In this document: in pieces, positions 4,573-17,318 of the stretch
How the letters are laid out: every line of letters begins with the position of its first letter
Numbering within the stretch: the first letter of the stretch is position 1
Origin: Halalkalicoccus sp. CG83
GTDB taxonomy: Archaea; Halobacteriota; Halobacteria; Halobacteriales; Halalkalicoccaceae
Length of the DNA stretch: 64,000 nucleotides
Direction of reading: 5' to 3'
Assembly: GCF_037081715.1 (NCBI RefSeq)
Contig: NZ_JAZDDH010000001.1
Location: forward strand, 1,674,001 to 1,738,000
Translations under genes and position numbers: made by a program
The notes under the pieces: model-generated
The model's database searches: none
The model's input: the letters and a program-made list of their open reading frames with translations, nothing else
What the model was told of the DNA's origin: nothing

Positions 4573-5169
4573 ATGAGCGTCACCGACGTCACCGACCTCT
4601 ATCGCGAGTTCGGCGAGGAGCGGCTGCCGCCCGGCCAGCGCGAGACCTCGGAGTTCCCGGTGCTCTCGAAGGGCCCCGTTCCGGAGTGGGACCCCGACGA
4701 GTGGGAGTTCACCGTCACCGGGGCAGTCGAGGAGGAACTCTCCCTCTCCTGGGAGGAGTTCCGGGCGCTTCCGACTCGCACGCAGCGCCAGGACTTCCAC
4801 TGCGTCACCGGCTGGAGCCGGTTCGACTGCGAGTTCGCCGGCGTCTCGTTTCCCGACCTGGCCGAACGCGCGGGCGTTCACGACGACGCCGTCCACGTCA
4901 TGTTCTCGGCGCTCGACGGCTATACGACGAACCTTCCGCTCGAGGCCTGCAACCGAGAGGAGGTGCTGTTCACCTGGGAACTCGACGGCGAGGACCTTCC
5001 GCCGGACCACGGTGGTCCCCTACGAGTGGTCACGCCACACAAGTACGCTTACAAGGGTGCGAAGTGGGTCGACGGAGTCGAGTTCCTGACCGAACCCGAA
5101 CGCGGCTTCTGGGAGAAACGCGGCTACTCCAACACCGCCGACCCGTGGAACGAGGAGCGCTACGGCTGA
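4573..5169 (+). CDS. Sulfite-oxidase-fold molybdopterin oxidoreductase
   Basis: A 198-residue protein of the oxidoreductase molybdopterin-binding (SUOX/YedY-like) superfamily. The molybdenum-ligating cysteine is Cys77 in DFHCVTGWSRFDCEF, and later motifs such as DGYTTNLPL and PHKYAYKGAKWV are typical of short YuiH-like members. It has no signal peptide, so unlike MsrP/YedY it is probably cytoplasmic. The substrate is not known. The ATG at 4573 was preferred because the upstream in-frame extension is low-complexity. The gene immediately precedes the replication origin. Confidence 0.87.
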   Translation: MSVTDVTDLYREFGEERLPPGQRETSEFPVLSKGPVPEWDPDEWEFTVTGAVEEELSLSWEEFRALPTRTQRQDFHCVTGWSRFDCEFAGVSFPDLAERAGVHDDAVHVMFSALDGYTTNLPLEACNREEVLFTWELDGEDLPPDHGGPLRVVTPHKYAYKGAKWVDGVEFLTEPERGFWEKRGYSNTADPWNEERYG

Positions 5170-5298
5170 CGATCGAACGGCACGAACGACGAACGGCCGC
5201 CGTTACCCTTCCGTGGAGTGCTCGCCGCGGAAAACGATCAATGGCGAGGCACGATCCCTCCCGATGTCGGGGACGCGAACCGGAACGAGGGCGGACAC

Positions 5299-5318
5299 AC
5301 ACCGGGTTTCCGGTGAAA
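5299..5318 (-). repeat. Origin recognition box (ORB1)
   Basis: On the minus strand this reads tttcaccggaaacccggtgt, identical over 20 bp to the copy at 7361-7380 and inverted relative to all other copies. Confidence 0.85.
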
Positions 5319-5446
5319 ACGGTCGTGAGAGAGGGGCCCCGGGGTGGGGCGACCGGAGGGAGATCGGTGAACAGAGGAAGGGATGCTAGACTCGGGAGGC
5401 GAGTCAGAGGTCGGGGCCACCCAGCCCGAGCCGTGCTCCCGATGGC

Positions 5447-5515
5447 CAGCTAATCCCGGGTTCCCGGTCGCCGGCTAATCCCGGGTTCTCAATGGCTGGC
5501 CAACCCCGGCGATCG
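5447..5515 (+). repeat. 25-bp tandem repeat inside the origin
   Basis: The 15-mer gctaatcccgggttc occurs at 5450-5464 and exactly 25 bp later at 5475-5489. A third degenerate unit (tggccaaccccgg) follows at about 5498-5510. Its function is unknown; it may be a protein-binding iteron. Confidence 0.6.
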
Positions 5516-5740
5516 ATGGCAGGAAGGTCGGTTCGAAGGACCGTCTCGAGGGAGCCATCCGTGGACTCGTAGATCGACGAAATCCACACGAACCGTAATC
5601 GGCAACTTCCGCCTCACCCACTCTCCCTCTACTTCTGACTCGACCCCGACCTACGTCCGGCCTTCTCCTCCTACTCTCTCTTTCCATGTCTAACCTATTT
5701 CTAATCTACTCGTCTCCTACAAGCATCCCACGCCGAACGT

Positions 5741-5765
5741 ATGAATGTATAGAGTTATATACTTC
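5741..5765. promoter_or_regulatory. Candidate DNA unwinding element
   Basis: This is the most AT-rich stretch between the inverted ORBs (6 G/C in 25 bp), adjoining the pyrimidine-rich tract. It is inferred to be the duplex-unwinding element because it lies between ORB1 and ORB2. Confidence 0.5.
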
Positions 5766-5988
5766 ACCTTCGTCACCGTCCATTGACTCAGTCGTCGAAC
5801 GAACGAAGGAACGAGGCGTCGGTCGTTCCCAGCCGACGCGAAACGGAGTTTCCGACCTGGAGATCGTCCTCTGGCTGAAGTCACGTAACGAACTGACGCC
5901 GGTGACCTGCCGGCGTTCGTTCGTGGTTTTCGTCCGTTCTCACGACGAGTGCCGTCCTTCGTCTGGAGCAATCCCCCTTCCCCCGCCG

Positions 5989-6008
5989 TTTCACCGGAAA
6001 CGTGGTGT
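5989..6008 (+). repeat. Origin recognition box (ORB2)
   Basis: The sequence tttcaccggaaacgtggtgt, exactly repeated 80 bp downstream at 6069-6088. Confidence 0.85.
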
Positions 6009-6068
6009 GTGCGCGCGGGTCGAACGACGTCGGTCCTCGGACGAGGAGCGTCGAAAGCGGCAGACCTA

Positions 6069-6088
6069 TTTCACCGGAAACGTGGTGT
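6069..6088 (+). repeat. Origin recognition box (ORB3), in the orc1 promoter
   Basis: This box is identical to ORB2 and ends 5 bp before the orc1 ATG at 6094. A TATA-like cctattt at 6065-6071 overlaps its left edge. Orc1 binding here would be expected to block its own transcription. Confidence 0.85.
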
Positions 6089-6093
6089 GGGGT

Positions 6094-7281
6094 ATGGTCG
6101 AGACGGACGAGCTGTTCATTCGCGACGATCCGATCTTCGTCAACAAGGAGTTGCTGGAGATCAACCACCTGCCCGACGAGGGTCGGATCGTCGGACGCGA
6201 CGAGGAGATCAAGCTGCTCGCGAACGCGGTCAACCCGGCGATCTTCGGCCAGAGCCCGAGCAACATCCTCATCTACGGCAAGACGGGCACCGGGAAGTCC
6301 TTGTGCGCGAAACACGTCTCCCAGCGCCTGATCGACGCCGCGAGCTCCGAGGGCGTCACCGCCGCGTTCGCCTACGTCGACTGCGCTCAGGACACCACCG
6401 AGACACAGGCGGTTCAGACGATCGCGAGCAGCTTCAACGACGCCGAAACGGACGTAAACGTCCCCGACAAGGGGATCAGCACGGCGACCTACTACAAACG
6501 CCTCTGGCGAATCCTCGACGAGCGTTACGACGTCGTGCTCATCATCCTCGACGAGATCGACAAACTCGCGGACGACGCCATCCTGATGCAGCTCTCGCGG
6601 GCGGGCGAGGCGGGCAAGCTCACCGACTGCAAGATCGGAGTGGTCGGCATCAGCAACAAGATCCGGTATAAGGACCGGATGGACGAGCGCGTCAAGAGCA
6701 GTCTCTGCGAGCGGGAGTTCGTCTTCCCGCCGTACGACGCCTCGCAGCTCGGCGAGATCATGGAGGCTCGCCGCGACGCCTTCCGCGACGGCGTCCTCGA
6801 AGGCGGCGTGATCCCGCGGGCCGCGGCGCTCGCCGCCCGCGAACACGGCGACGCGAGGAAGGCGATCGACATCCTTCGGTACGCCGGCGAGATCGCCCAG
6901 TCGACGGGTGCCGACTCCGTCCAGGAGGGGTACGTCACCGACGCGCGGAAGCGCGCCGAGACCGATCGGTTTCGCGAACTGATACGCGGATCGACGCCCC
7001 ACTCGCGCTACGTGCTCCACGCGCTGACGGTGCTCTCGCTCAACGGCGGCGACGGCTTCCGAACGACGGCGATCTACGACGTCTACGAGGAGATCTGTAG
7101 ACAGGAGGGCGCCGAACCGCTCTCGCTGCGTCGGGTGCGGGACCTGCTGAAGGAACACGCCTTCCTCGACATCATCGAGCAGTCGCGCCACAGCGGCGGC
7201 AGCGCCGAGGGTAGCTACACCCGTCACCGACTCCTCGAGGACGCCGACGTCGTCCGTGACGTGCTCGTCGACCCAGCCTGA
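6094..7281 (+). CDS. orc1: Orc1/Cdc6 replication initiator
   Basis: A 395-residue AAA+ initiator that binds ORBs and loads the MCM helicase. Residues 62-69 are the Walker A motif GKTGTGKS, DEID at 153-156 is Walker B, and VGISNK near 190 is sensor 1. The C-terminal third is the winged-helix DNA-binding domain (from about residue 300). I chose the ATG at 6094: homologues start close to this point, and the longer frame from 5686 runs through the two ORBs and the AT-rich core. Five ORB copies surround the gene, so it is very likely the initiator of this origin. The ORB between its promoter and ATG suggests autoregulation. Confidence 0.96.
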   Translation: MVETDELFIRDDPIFVNKELLEINHLPDEGRIVGRDEEIKLLANAVNPAIFGQSPSNILIYGKTGTGKSLCAKHVSQRLIDAASSEGVTAAFAYVDCAQDTTETQAVQTIASSFNDAETDVNVPDKGISTATYYKRLWRILDERYDVVLIILDEIDKLADDAILMQLSRAGEAGKLTDCKIGVVGISNKIRYKDRMDERVKSSLCEREFVFPPYDASQLGEIMEARRDAFRDGVLEGGVIPRAAALAAREHGDARKAIDILRYAGEIAQSTGADSVQEGYVTDARKRAETDRFRELIRGSTPHSRYVLHALTVLSLNGGDGFRTTAIYDVYEEICRQEGAEPLSLRRVRDLLKEHAFLDIIEQSRHSGGSAEGSYTRHRLLEDADVVRDVLVDPA

Positions 7282-7340
7282 TCGGCCGTTTCCGTCGATG
7301 CGTCCGGAACGGTTCCCCGTCTCCGTCCTCGTCCCTCTCG

Positions 7341-7359
7341 TTCACCGGAAACCCGGTGT
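7341..7359 (+). repeat. Origin recognition box (ORB4), downstream of orc1
   Basis: The sequence ttcaccggaaacccggtgt, a 19-bp match lacking only the first base of the 20-mer. It lies in the 148-bp gap between orc1 and menF. Confidence 0.8.
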
Positions 7360-7360
7360 G

Positions 7361-7380
7361 TTTCACCGGAAACCCGGTGT
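7361..7380 (+). repeat. Origin recognition box (ORB5), downstream of orc1
   Basis: The sequence tttcaccggaaacccggtgt, in tandem with ORB4 with one base between them. Position 7361 is 69 bp before the menF start codon. Confidence 0.8.
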
Positions 7381-7429
7381 CCGACCCCGGATAGGCACGC
7401 TGAAGGGGCCGGAACCCTGAGAACGGGTA

Positions 7430-8782
7430 ATGACGTCCTCGCACCCCGAGGGTCCGATATCCGCCGCCCAGGCCCGAACGGAGGCCGTGCTGGTGAGCCG
7501 GGCCTGCGAGGTGCCGGAACTCTCCTATCGAACGTTTCTCGCCCGCCACGACCCACCACGGATCCACTGGGCCGCGCCGGCCGGCCCCGAGATCGTCGGC
7601 GCCGGCGCGGCCGCGCGCCTGACCGCGAGCGGTCCCGATCGGTTCGATCGGCTCCGGTCGGACGCGGATCGGCTCTTCTCCGACGTCGACGCGGAACTCC
7701 CCGCATCGGTGCGACCGCGCGCGTTCGGCGGATTCGCCTTCGACGAGGATCACGGCGACTCGCCCCCTTGGGAGGGGTTCCCCGCCGCGGAGTTCGTCGT
7801 GCCGCGGATCCAGCTCACGCGAACCGACGACGGCACCTGGCTCACGGTCTCGGAGTACGGAGCCGAGGTCGACGCCGCCGCGGTGACGACCGAACTCGAA
7901 CGCGCCCGAGAGAGCCTCTCGGACTACCCCGAGATGCAGCCGAGCGGCAGGCCGCCGGGCGTCGCGGCCACCCGTCGAACGACCTCCCGGCGGGAGTGGA
8001 CCCGGCAGGTCGACGCTGCCACCGCGCGAATCGACGCCGGCGACCTTCGGAAGGTCGTGCTCGCCCAGGCGCTCGAGGCCGACCTCGAGGCGCCGATCGA
8101 GATCCCCGACGTGCTCGAACGCCTTCGCAGAACCTACCCCGACTGCTACCGGTTCCTGATCGAGCCGACCGCCACGGCCGGCTTCTTCGGCGCACCGCCC
8201 GAACGGCTGGTGTCGCTTCGGGATCGAACCGTCCGGACCGAGGCGCTGGCGGGTTCGGTCGCTCGGGGCGAGAGCCCCGAAGAGGACCACGAGCTGATGG
8301 CGTCGCTGCTCGAGAGCGGAAAGCTCGAACGCGAACACGGCGTCGTCGTCGATACGATCCGCGAACAGCTCGCACCGCTCGGCGAGGTGAGCGTCGAGGA
8401 CCGAACCGTCCGGAAGCTCGCGACGATCCAGCACCTCAGGACGCCGATCACCGCACGGCTCGCGAGCGACGAACACGTCCTCTCGTTGGTCGAGGCGCTC
8501 CATCCGACGCCCGCAGTCGGCGGGCTCCCGCCCGAGACGGCCCTGGAGACGATCCGCGAGACCGAAACGTTCGATCGCGGCTGGTACGCCGCCCCCGTCG
8601 GATGGTTCGATGCGGCCGGCGACGGCGAGTTCGCCGTGGCGATCCGATCGGGCGTCGCGAGCGGCCGGACCGTCGCGCTGTTCGCGGGCAACGGTATCGT
8701 CGCCGACAGCGATCCCGATGAGGAGTGGGAGGAGGTCCAGCTCAAATACCGCCCGATCCTCGACGCGCTCTCGCAGCGATGA
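7430..8782 (+). CDS. menF: Isochorismate synthase
   Basis: A 450-residue chorismate-utilising enzyme that converts chorismate to isochorismate, the first step of menaquinone synthesis. The C-terminal catalytic domain (from about residue 185) carries KVVLAQAL, the FLIEPTATAGFFGAPPERLV segment, LAGSVARG and the ending AGNGIVADSDPDEEWEEVQLK, all typical of the MenF/EntC/TrpE fold. The N-terminal part is the usual variable region. Its stop overlaps the menD start (ATGA), so the two genes are translationally coupled. The chorismate-binding enzymes are close relatives, but the menD partner makes MenF by far the best call. Confidence 0.94.
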   Translation: MTSSHPEGPISAAQARTEAVLVSRACEVPELSYRTFLARHDPPRIHWAAPAGPEIVGAGAAARLTASGPDRFDRLRSDADRLFSDVDAELPASVRPRAFGGFAFDEDHGDSPPWEGFPAAEFVVPRIQLTRTDDGTWLTVSEYGAEVDAAAVTTELERARESLSDYPEMQPSGRPPGVAATRRTTSRREWTRQVDAATARIDAGDLRKVVLAQALEADLEAPIEIPDVLERLRRTYPDCYRFLIEPTATAGFFGAPPERLVSLRDRTVRTEALAGSVARGESPEEDHELMASLLESGKLEREHGVVVDTIREQLAPLGEVSVEDRTVRKLATIQHLRTPITARLASDEHVLSLVEALHPTPAVGGLPPETALETIRETETFDRGWYAAPVGWFDAAGDGEFAVAIRSGVASGRTVALFAGNGIVADSDPDEEWEEVQLKYRPILDALSQR

Positions 8783-13273: not shown

Positions 13274-13603
13274 TCACTCTATGACGTCCACGTTCGGGTG
13301 GACCGGTCGCTCGCCCGCGTCGCCCGACCTGGCCAGGCTCGCGTCGAACTTCCCCCGCAGAAACAGCGCCCCCTTCTCGCTCAGCGCGTACTGCTGGGTG
13401 CGGGTGGCGTCGACGAACCCGTACGCCTGCAGCCGCGCGATGCGCGCGTCGACGTAGGACTGGGCGTAGACCATCGCGTCGCCGGCGCCCGCCTCGGCCA
13501 ACCGTTCGCGGATCTCCTCCTTCGGGAGCGGGAACTCGCTGTCCTCGAGCGCCTCGAGGACCCGTTCGTCCACCTGCGTTATCCAGTCGGCGTGTTTCCT
13601 CAT
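13274..13603 (-). CDS. Winged-helix regulator (PhiH1-repressor-like)
   Basis: A 109-residue protein beginning MRKHADWITQVDERVLEALE, followed by EFPLPKEEIRERLAEAGAGD and YVDARIARLQAYGFVDATRT. This is a winged-helix domain resembling haloarchaeal PhiH1-repressor-like proteins, with a beta wing QQYALSEKGALFLRGKFDA. The start at 13603 is chosen for its match to that family. It lies 88 bp downstream of, and on the same strand as, the big RND transporter, so it could be co-transcribed with it and regulate it. That link is inference only. Confidence 0.82.
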   Translation of the reverse strand: MRKHADWITQVDERVLEALEDSEFPLPKEEIRERLAEAGAGDAMVYAQSYVDARIARLQAYGFVDATRTQQYALSEKGALFLRGKFDASLARSGDAGERPVHPNVDVIE

Positions 13604-13691
13604 GGTACCGTGTACCTCGGCACACGTTCGGATTATCCTTTCGTACCCGCGATCGGTGCCCCGCACCGCTCGAAGCCGGATCGGACGGAAG

Positions 13692-16600
13692 TCAGTCGTC
13701 GCCTTCCGGACTCCGCGCCGTATCGACGGTGCGGGTCTCGCCGGCCACGGTCGTCTCCGCGCTCGCGTTCGTGTAGATCGCTCCCGCGTCCGTGGCGTCG
13801 GCCGAGGAGTCGTCCGTGGCGCCGCCCGGCGGGCGGAGGTACCTGTTCCAGAGCACCAACAGGCTCGGCAGAACGAACACGCTTCCGAGGAACGCGTAGA
13901 CGATCGTCAGGCCCGTGATCAGCCCGAACTGCCGGAGCGGCGGCACGATGGCGAAGGCGAGGAGGCCGAACCCGCCGACGGTCGTGGCCGCGCTGCCGAG
14001 CAGCGCCCCGCCGGTTCCGGTGACGCTGCGGTAGAGCCCCTGCCAGATCCCTCGGCCGCGTCGTCCCTCGAGGACGAACCGCTCGGTCATGTGGATGTTG
14101 TAGGCGACGCCGAGCCCGATCGTGAGGCTCGTTATCATCCCCGTTATGACGTTGAACGGGATGCCGAGGAGATACATGGTCCCGAGGATCCACGCGACCG
14201 TCAGCACGATCGGGAACAGCGTGACGGCGCCGAGCAGCGCGCTGCCGTAGAGCCTGCGGTAGACGGCCATGAGGAACGCGAACACCACGACGAGCGTCAC
14301 GACGAGGCTCTCGACGACGGTCTCGAACAGCTCCGTCTCGACGATGCCGCCGACGATCTCCCCGCCCGTCGCGGTCGCCTCCAGACCGTCGCCGTCGACG
14401 ACGGTCGCGACCGAGCGGGCGTCCTCGGTCACCGCGTCGGTGCCGGCCCCGCCCCGGACGGAGACGGTTAGCAACAGCGCCTCGTACTCGCCGGCCTCGG
14501 TCCGGTGGACCACCTCGGCGGCGCGCTCCTCGTCGGCCTCGTAGAGCGCGTCGTAGACCGCCTCGAGGTTCTCGTCGGGAACGCCGTCGCCGTCCGTGTC
14601 CGCCTCGGAGAACGTCTCGTCGAACTCCTCGTCCTCCGCGGCGACCGACTCCATGACCGACAGCGGGCTCCTGACGTCCGCGTCGCCGCTCGAGAGGACG
14701 ATCGTCGTCTCCCGTTCCGCGGCGCGTTCCTCGGCCTCGTCGACCCGTTCTAACGTGTCGTCCCGGGTGACGTCGCCCTCGATGAGCACCTGTGCCTGGT
14801 TGTCCTGGCGCAGGAAGTTGTCGTTGACGTAGTCGAGGTGTGTCTTCGCCGAGTACTCGCCGACCGCGAGCGGTTCGGGCAGCTCCTGCATCCACGCCGG
14901 CGGGTCGTCGGCGATGAGGTCCTCCTCCTCGAACGTGGTCTCGACCTGCGTCGCGCCGTAGGCGCCGCCTGCAGTCACGAGCAGCGCGGCGATCACGACC
15001 GTCCACGGGACGCGGCGGGCGGCGCGCTGGCCGCCGGCGAGGAACCCGCTCGTCAAGCCGCCGCCGGTCCCGAACGCGCGCTTTCGTCGGTCGAACCCGT
15101 AGCCCTCCAGCAGGGCGTCGAGCTCGACCTTGATCGCCGGGACGAGCACGCCGAAGATCAACAGCGCGGCGGAGATGCCGACCGCGCTGACGATGCCGAA
15201 CTCCCGGATGGGGCCGATCGGGCTGACGAGGTTCGAGAGGAAGCCGATCACGGCCGTCGCGGTGACGAGGACGAACGCGACGCCCAGCCCGCCGATGACG
15301 TGCTCCATCGCGATGCGGGTGGAGCCCCCAGCGTCCTCGTCGAGTTCGCTTCGTTGCTCGCGGTGGCGCATGAACAGGTGGATCGCGTAGTCGATGCTCA
15401 GCCCCACGAGCAACACCGGCACCGCGATCATGATCTGGTTGAACGCGATCCCGGCCCAGCCCATGAACCCGAACGTCCAGACCAGCACGAGGAGGATGCC
15501 GAACAGGCCGACGAGGATGTCGAGGAGATCCCGGTAGGCCAGCGTCAGCACGATCGTCACGAACAGCAGCGCCAGCGGGAGAACGAGCGTGAGGCTGTCG
15601 GTCATCGACCGGTCGCTCTCGTCGGCGATGACCCCCGAGCCGAAGACGAACGCGCTCTCGCCGTATCGCTCGTCCAGGGTCGACTGCATCGCGAGCTGGG
15701 AGTCGACCAGCGCGTCGGGCGCCTCGCCCTCCATGCCGCTCTGTGCCTGCTCGGTCGTCTGGGTGACGAACATCGTCCGCGCCTCGGCGTCGGTCGAGCC
15801 CGGCTCGTGATCCGTCGGTAGGAACGCGTACGCCCCGCCGTCGCCGTTCCCGTCCTCGTCGAGCACCGACTCGGTCACCTCGTCGATCTCCGACCGGTCC
15901 ATCGACTCCAGCTGTTCGATCTGCTCCTCGGTGGTGGGGTCGATCTCGGAGAGCTCGTCGAACTCCTCATCGAGTTCGTCGGCCTCGGCCTCGAGTGCCT
16001 CCCGATCCTCCTCGAGCGCGTCGGCCTCGGCCTCGAGCGCCTGACCGCGTTCCTCGAGTTCCTCACCGCGTTCTTCCAGCGTCTCGCCCCGTTCTTCGAG
16101 TGCATTACCGCGCTCCTCGAGGGATGCCTGGCGCTCTTCCAGTTCGGCGGCGTCCTCCTCGAGTGCATTACCGCGCTCCTCGAGCTCCTCGCTACGCTCC
16201 TCGAGGGCCGCCTGACGTTCCTCCAGTTCGGTGGCGTCCTCCTCGAGTGCGCTCCCGCGTTCCTCGAGATCGGCCGCCGCATCGGCGAGCACCTCCTCCT
16301 CGATGGCGCCGTAGTGTCCCTCCATCTCGGCGGTGAGATCCGCCTGTCGCCGTTCGTACTCCTCCTCGTCGATCTCGCCGGCCTCGTACTGGGCGTTCAG
16401 TTCGTTCAGCTCGGCCTGCGTTCCCGCGACGTCGTCGATCAACGGGGAGAACGCCTCGAACTCGTCCGCGGGCAGCTCCTCCTCCGCGTCCGCCCGCAGT
16501 GATTCGATCCCGGCCGCGTACTCCAGTGCCGTGATCTCGCCCTGATCGTAGGCCGTCCGAAGTTCACGCGTCTCGTCGAGCGTCTCCGTCATGAACTCGC

Positions 16601-17318
16601 CGCGGGCCTCGAGCGCTTCCCGGTCCTCCTCGAGGGCCGCCTGGCGTTCCTCGAGTTCCTCGCCCTCCGCCTCGAGTTCAGCAGCGTCCTCTTCGAGCGC
16701 TTCCTGCTCCTCCTCGAGGGCCGCCCGGCGCTCCTCGAGCTCTTCACCCTCCGCCTCGAGTTCGGCGGCGTCCTCTTCGAGCGCCTCACGGTCCTCCTCG
16801 AGTTCCGCAGCGTCCTCCTCGAGTTCCTCCTGTTCGGCCTCGAGGTTCTCGCCGCGTTCCTGAAGTTCGTTACCGCGCTCCTCGAGTTCCTCCCCGCGCT
16901 CCTCGAGTTCGTCGGCCCGGTCCTCGAGCTCGGACTGGCGTTCGTCGATGATCGCCGTCGTCGCGACGACGTTCGAGAGGTCGGCGAAGGGCTCCTCCGC
17001 GAGCGTCGGCTCGATCGTCTCGTCCTCGCGGAACTCCTGCTGGAGTTCGAGCGTCGAGATCAGCGAGGACTTCGACAGCGCGTCCCCGTCACGGACGATG
17101 ATCTGTGCGGTCGTCTCGTTGTCGTCGGTGCCGAAGTTTTCCTCGACGTACTCGAGCTTCTCCGCCTCCTCGCTGTCGGTTTCGAACTGGTCGAACGAGG
17201 AGGACTGCTCGACCGCCGTGACGCCGCTGCCGACGACCAGCGAGAGCACCAGCAGCGCGGCGATGACCGTCCGGCTTCGTCGCGTGATCGTCCGCACCAG
17301 ACGGTCACTGAGCCCCAT
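13692..17318 (-). CDS. RND/MMPL-family transporter with giant coiled-coil insertion
   Basis: A 1208-residue RND exporter. TM1 is at residues 17-36, an extracytoplasmic domain spans about 37-585, and a bundle of hydrophobic segments covers about 590-780. It contains GLSIDYAIHLFMRHREQ, typical of MMPL/RND TM4. A second single TM lies near 815 and a second external domain follows to about 1000. The last bundle has GLGVAYNIHMTERFVL. The first external domain carries two long heptad arrays of LEERGEE-like units: 16 heptads at 131-242 and 15 at 351-455, joined by a 100-residue segment. This looks like an antiparallel coiled-coil hairpin. The second external domain has a Ca-binding-like loop DTDGDGVPDENLE. 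The cargo is unknown. The family exports lipids, drugs or sterol-like molecules. Confidence 0.9.
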   Translation of the reverse strand: MGLSDRLVRTITRRSRTVIAALLVLSLVVGSGVTAVEQSSSFDQFETDSEEAEKLEYVEENFGTDDNETTAQIIVRDGDALSKSSLISTLELQQEFREDETIEPTLAEEPFADLSNVVATTAIIDERQSELEDRADELEERGEELEERGNELQERGENLEAEQEELEEDAAELEEDREALEEDAAELEAEGEELEERRAALEEEQEALEEDAAELEAEGEELEERQAALEEDREALEARGEFMTETLDETRELRTAYDQGEITALEYAAGIESLRADAEEELPADEFEAFSPLIDDVAGTQAELNELNAQYEAGEIDEEEYERRQADLTAEMEGHYGAIEEEVLADAAADLEERGSALEEDATELEERQAALEERSEELEERGNALEEDAAELEERQASLEERGNALEERGETLEERGEELEERGQALEAEADALEEDREALEAEADELDEEFDELSEIDPTTEEQIEQLESMDRSEIDEVTESVLDEDGNGDGGAYAFLPTDHEPGSTDAEARTMFVTQTTEQAQSGMEGEAPDALVDSQLAMQSTLDERYGESAFVFGSGVIADESDRSMTDSLTLVLPLALLFVTIVLTLAYRDLLDILVGLFGILLVLVWTFGFMGWAGIAFNQIMIAVPVLLVGLSIDYAIHLFMRHREQRSELDEDAGGSTRIAMEHVIGGLGVAFVLVTATAVIGFLSNLVSPIGPIREFGIVSAVGISAALLIFGVLVPAIKVELDALLEGYGFDRRKRAFGTGGGLTSGFLAGGQRAARRVPWTVVIAALLVTAGGAYGATQVETTFEEEDLIADDPPAWMQELPEPLAVGEYSAKTHLDYVNDNFLRQDNQAQVLIEGDVTRDDTLERVDEAEERAAERETTIVLSSGDADVRSPLSVMESVAAEDEEFDETFSEADTDGDGVPDENLEAVYDALYEADEERAAEVVHRTEAGEYEALLLTVSVRGGAGTDAVTEDARSVATVVDGDGLEATATGGEIVGGIVETELFETVVESLVVTLVVVFAFLMAVYRRLYGSALLGAVTLFPIVLTVAWILGTMYLLGIPFNVITGMITSLTIGLGVAYNIHMTERFVLEGRRGRGIWQGLYRSVTGTGGALLGSAATTVGGFGLLAFAIVPPLRQFGLITGLTIVYAFLGSVFVLPSLLVLWNRYLRPPGGATDDSSADATDAGAIYTNASAETTVAGETRTVDTARSPEGDD

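Follow-up and report, generated by a model that had tools for sequence, protein, structure and literature searches.

The window analysed here, a stretch of 64,000 nucleotides from Halalkalicoccus sp. CG83, carries the gene of an MmpL/HpnN-like RND exporter with an insertion in its first external (porter) domain, and this insertion almost certainly forms a long, two-stranded antiparallel coiled-coil hairpin. The best explanation of the whole, to which we give a probability of roughly 0.6, is that the hairpin bears a tip and serves as a tunable mast. The gene and the parts of its product discussed first are located as follows.

13692..17318, minus strand: MMPL/RND transporter gene, 1208 aa (intact frame with ATG start, Pfam, AlphaFold2).
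16593..16928, minus strand: arm 1, 16 Leu heptads, residues 131-242, modelled helix 112-258 (heptad count, AlphaFold2).
16290..16592, minus strand: tip of about 100 residues (243-343), helical, with two GEI..EY turns at about 257-267 and 311-321 (Pfam, pLDDT 92-96, HMM).
15933..16289, minus strand: arm 2, 17 Leu heptads, residues 344-462, modelled helix 318-457 (heptad count, AlphaFold2).
15387..15392, minus strand: Asp643-Tyr644 of TM4 (GLSIDYAIH), a putative ion-relay pair, invariant in 32 relatives.

A wrong strand or a broken ORF was ruled out, as the minus-strand frame is intact and the plus strand has several stops. The Pfam family MMPL (PF03176) was matched in both halves of the protein, in two stretches (E = 7e-38), and HpnN was matched at the sequence level (E = 5e-26) with a model score far below the cut-off; the score on the HAE-3 model TIGR00921 is 204 bits, against a curated cut-off of 351.9. 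The AlphaFold2 model of the whole protein, a monomer obtained from an alignment of 32 sequences (pLDDT 82.7, pTM 0.64), has the 12-TM RND fold with two porter domains; in the PDB it is matched best by MmpL5 and MmpL4, and matches to MmpL5, NPC1L1 and HpnN were obtained at E about 1e-20. The counterpart in TM10 of the Asp-Tyr pair is Ala1072-Tyr1073. This replacement of Asp by Ala in the TM10 relay motif (GLGVAYSIH) is found in every readable member of the hairpin-bearing set, and Asp is kept in both halves by most haloarchaeal RNDs that have no insert. The same RND gene is also present in H. paucihalophilus, a member of the same genus.

Within the insertion, leucine recurs in 16 consecutive heptads at residues 131-236 and in 17 at residues 344-456. 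An earlier, sequence-only reading of this DNA had counted 16 and 15; its first array stands, and its second has to be extended to 17 in a row. The longest run of leucine heptads obtained in 5,000 shuffles, either of residues 37-590 or of each arm with its own composition, was seven, which rules out chance or composition as the source of the arrays. The placement of both arrays in the first external domain, with about 100 residues (243-343) separating them, was likewise read correctly, and the whole-protein model puts this domain between TM1 and TM2. The equal arms hold too: measured from conserved motifs, 118 residues precede the tip and 117 follow it. The elements around the insert follow in the order E68-76, H83-98, E106-112, hairpin, E513-521, H535-555 and E556-559 in the AlphaFold2 model. 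This is the known layout of RND porter domains, beta1-alpha1-beta2-X-beta3-alpha2-beta4, in which slot X accepts extra domains such as PD3 of HpnN or the head of SecDF (PMC8277102), and the hairpin is thus placed in porter domain 1 between strands 2 and 3. Names of SMC, growth-arrest-specific and other coiled-coil families returned by database scans were set aside as low-complexity matches well below the cut-offs.

Three lines of evidence agree on the hairpin and together support it: the AlphaFold2 model, the paired-heptad evolution of arm length, and the centred turn in relatives that have no tip. For the first of these, residues 100-490 were modelled alone with AlphaFold2 on an alignment with one congener, H. 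paucihalophilus; this single close relative was used because an alignment of eight sequences had positioned short tips wrongly, with their first half on arm 1. The insert was then modelled as two continuous helices (112-258 and 318-457), with pLDDT about 85-96 along both arms and a pTM of 0.52. In the model of the whole protein, the arms have low-confidence breaks at 163-185 and 399-415, which coincide with gaps in the alignment. The nearest solved folds to the modelled insert are antiparallel hairpins, those of the chemoreceptor 2ch7 and of Rad50, with 316-415 columns aligned along both arms in statistically weak matches. At 0.15 nm per residue, the modelled helices give a rod of about 21-22 nm. 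The antiparallel hairpin proposed from the letters alone is supported by modelling, which had been suggested as a check on it; its estimated length of about 16 nm is too short, as the modelled helices extend beyond the leucine arrays.

The tests of length, duplication and centred turn stand independent of the structure model. Arm length was surveyed in 102 haloarchaeal relatives with a measurable insert site, long RND frames from other orders (L153-L156) being left out. A hairpin-type insert occurs at the same site in about 90 of the 102, so that it was too strong to say that ordinary MMPL/RND proteins are without such arms, the more so as MmpL4 and MmpL5 have a 13 nm hairpin. Arms that do not pair, or that are missing from close relatives, had been named in advance as findings that would speak against a hairpin, and both points fell in its favour: the arms pair, and they are present in four congeners and in many genera. 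The latter also rules out a recent expansion private to one genome.

Across the family, arms range from about two heptads to about 200 residues. They fall into classes (arm 1, arm 2) of (15,17), (29,31), (36,38), (43,45) and (57,59) residues for a first type of tip, and of (19,11), (33,25), (47,39), (54,46) and (61,53) residues for a second; within the genus, classes run from (75,80) to (110,115). The steps between classes are an equal multiple of seven on both sides. On a tree built without the insert, 18 independent pairs were compared along non-overlapping paths: in 10 of them both arms had changed by exactly the same multiple of seven, and in 13 the two changes agreed within two residues. 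None of 200,000 trials in which the second arm was permuted reached the observed agreement. Of the eight pairs whose arms had not changed equally, three were off by one or two residues, and the rest mostly reflected minor differences beyond the arms. In one relative (L025), 45 residues have been added on a single side. Multiples of seven can be attributed to repeat slippage, but equal change in two arms that are about 100 residues apart points to pairing and selection.

The window copy itself carries two internal repeats of this kind.

16614..16781, minus strand: 28-residue block of arm 1 in two tandem copies (180-207 / 208-235), 89% identical in DNA and the best-matching 28-aa repeat of this arm.
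16101..16268, minus strand: 28-residue block of arm 2 in two tandem copies (351-378 / 379-406), 80% identical in DNA and, give or take 1-2 residues in the start of the block, the best-matching 28-aa repeat of this arm.

In a hairpin these two duplications would face each other exactly (180+406 = 235+351 = 586). The 28-residue blocks are apparently single-copy in congeners with a shorter hairpin, and the extra length of the window copy is partly recent. In six relatives whose insert has no tip, the turn lies 1-3 residues from the centre of the insert, and this centred turn was found in tip-less inserts of 175, 373, 400 and 415 residues. The tip-less hairpins of Haladaptatus and Halocatena copies (L055, L059, L037, L096 and L076) have arms of about 185-210 residues, or about 30 nm, and some of these are located on plasmids. 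Another relative (L005/L034) has 45 consecutive leucine heptads with no visible turn. Values of dN/dS were used for the arms, the tip and the N-terminal part; in arms and tip they are 0.2-0.5 (three congeners with arms of equal length), which indicates that the hairpin is under purifying selection.

The tip is a conserved, separate unit with two G-E-I-x-x-x-E-Y turns, and homologous tips were recovered in relatives by HMM. When scanned alone, the window tip matched GvpG (40.8 bits, gathering cut-off 30.6, E 2.6e-10) and SHOCT (29.9 bits, gathering cut-off 27, E 4.3e-7); neither family appeared when the whole protein was scanned against Pfam. For SHOCT, a role in oligomerisation has been tested and was not supported, and binding of something else was suggested (PMC3581485). 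Relatives throughout the order have a tip of like kind on short arms, and one was also recognised by eye in a genome outside the order. In the latter, the tip with its short arms belongs to an RND frame (L151) whose ORF runs on into an ABC-ATPase-like domain. Some copies of Natronococcus and Natronolimnohabitans (L104, L084, L083, L089 and L068) carry at least two tandem tip units, in inserts of 444-789 residues.

Two further genes are relevant, one next to the exporter gene and one elsewhere in the same genome.

13274..13666, minus strand: downstream gene, 25 bp past the RND stop, encoding a 130-aa protein that by eye resembles a winged-helix regulator.
G000:C2 625962-639112, ORF 5090-7651: hairpin-less paralogue (L130).

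The paralogue L130 is the closest in the genome, being 65% identical to the window protein in the core, and has 20 residues where the hairpin would be; it scores 248 bits on TIGR00921. An RND core can therefore exist without the insert. Its locus, beside a PAC2-like gene, is that of a hairpin-bearing copy (L035) in H. paucihalophilus, an arrangement that suggests an apparent loss or swap of the hairpin there. Copies within one cell differ in arm length in five of the six species checked. The downstream 130-aa protein has no clear match in Pfam or NCBIfam, and the spacing is such that the two genes are possibly co-transcribed. Among 75 relatives of the hairpin-bearing set (L032-L109), the next gene downstream on the same strand encodes a TrmB-family regulator in 52, and 23 have a TetR-like gene, mostly divergent and upstream. 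The neighbourhood of the window gene contains neither a TrmB-type nor a TetR-like gene, the TrmB-type regulator being absent there in Halalkalicoccus, and the gene context around the hairpin-bearing RND is not conserved within the genus.

As sequence, model and evolution support, the insertion folds back on itself as an antiparallel coiled coil of about 21-22 nm with a helical SHOCT/GvpG-like tip at its end. We propose that the rod would act as a stiff, adjustable mast that keeps the tip a fixed distance away from the membrane, where the tip may touch a partner, be it another copy of the pump, a surface protein or a cargo-handling protein. Over evolution the mast would grow or shrink by equal numbers of heptads on its two sides, since a heptad with no counterpart opposite would break the register of the hairpin. 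For the rod taken by itself, we regard the role of a mast as evenly balanced between right and wrong; set against a tube, a bridge to the S-layer or a decoration, a mast for the tip is favoured at about even odds. A bolder extension, which we put forward tentatively and consider rather unlikely, is that of an evolvable ruler: species, and paralogues sharing a cell, would adjust how high a conserved docking tip stands by gaining or losing facing pairs of heptads, so that their pumps reach different envelope layers or partners.

An improbable alternative is a conduit of the MmpL4/5 kind, in which the three hairpins of a trimer would come together as a helical tube for the outward passage of substrate. 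The hairpin of MmpL5 has been predicted to form such a tube of 13 nm and is essential for export (PMC12501195), the core fold of the window protein is nearest to MmpL5 and MmpL4 in the PDB, and the external-domain context is that of the same superfamily. The insert lies, however, in porter domain 1, and that of MmpL4/5 in porter domain 2. Both arms have one leucine per heptad, with heptad position 5 mostly Gly, Ala or Gln and the rest mostly Glu and Arg; the non-polar surface of each helix is accordingly a single narrow stripe in a sequence that is otherwise nearly all Glu, Arg, Ala and Gly, which suits a two-stranded hairpin and not a six-helix barrel with a lined lumen. Moreover, the neighbourhood of the window gene contains no MmpS-like gene and no gene for an Ig-type partner.

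Equally hard to sustain is the view of the sequence-only reading, that the hairpin couples the pump to the cell surface by reaching the S-layer or takes the place of an accessory adaptor. The modelled 21-22 nm compares well with the distance of 20.4 +/- 2.7 nm between membrane and S-layer in Haloferax volcanii (PMC7838353), and the window protein could thus reach that far. Reaching the S-layer does not hold as a general role: arms vary from about two heptads to about 200 residues and are unequal among the copies of a cell, which argues against any fixed distance being spanned, most members of the family are too short to reach the S-layer, and one paralogue has no insert at all. As for an adaptor, a gene for an Ig-type partner (NPCBM_assoc/CARDB) lies near 10 of 40 insert-less RNDs and near none of the 75 members of the hairpin-bearing set, and no Ig-repeat, C-terminally anchored partner was found near the window gene. 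This is weakly consistent with the hairpin substituting for such a partner, yet 30 of the 40 insert-less RNDs also have none, and the count is confounded by phylogeny.

Least probable is a dispensable decoration that folds harmlessly, has no task of its own and drifts in length by unequal recombination in repetitive DNA, a view that fits the recent 84-bp duplications, the wide range of lengths and the loss of the insert in L130 at the locus of the congener's hairpin-bearing copy, but slippage alone would alter one arm at a time, whereas the two arms shifted by one and the same multiple of seven in 10 of the 18 independent pairs, arms and tip are under purifying selection, and the tip has been retained in many genera and also beyond the order.

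Archaea have neither the outer membrane nor the adaptor proteins on which Gram-negative pumps rely, and the hairpin bears on how archaeal RND pumps handle the space under the S-layer. The natural series of hairpins, from about two heptads to about 200 residues per arm, together with the insert-less paralogue, makes this question directly testable by swapping or trimming. Facing and equal changes in arms about 100 residues apart also constitute a clear natural case of compensatory coiled-coil growth, which to our knowledge has so far come from chemoreceptors and not from transporters.

In the open-access literature, we found no description of an archaeal exporter with a paired-heptad hairpin and a SHOCT/GvpG-like tip, nor of paired length change of both arms in any transporter, nor a report of paired-heptad length classes for MmpL4/5. 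MmpL4 and MmpL5 share with the window protein the RND fold and a long antiparallel coiled-coil hairpin, of about 13 nm, inserted in a porter domain (PMC12501195, PMC12803245). They differ from it in that their hairpin lies in porter domain 2, has a disulphide at its tip and is accompanied by the partner MmpS and bound AcpM, whereas the hairpin studied here lies in porter domain 1, ends in a SHOCT/GvpG-like tip and has no MmpS-like neighbour. The hopanoid transporter HpnN (HAE-3) has the RND fold and a helical insert (PD3) that occupies the same slot in porter domain 1 (PMC8277102), but this insert has been described as a helical domain and not as a long heptad rod. The RND permeases of the HVO_A0467 type in Haloferax volcanii, which have an adjacent Ig partner (HVO_A0466), belong to the same haloarchaeal RND family; the study that described them mentions coiled-coil regions only as matches to ignore (PMC11349517). 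The partner-bearing RNDs examined here have no insert, and the hairpin-bearing set has no partner.

Outside the transporters, SMC and Rad50 proteins have antiparallel coiled-coil arms with preferred lengths (PMC5344682), but they are DNA-organising ATPases whose length preference tracks a longer, superhelical period. The closest parallel is provided by bacterial chemoreceptors, which fall into length classes with 12 to 32 paired heptads (PMC6628036): these too are long antiparallel hairpins whose heptads vary in pairs across the arms, and they are the nearest structural match of the modelled insert. As members of an unrelated family, in which the hairpin is a cytoplasmic signalling domain and forms the four-helix bundle of a dimer, they are an analogue of the haloarchaeal insert and not a relative of it.
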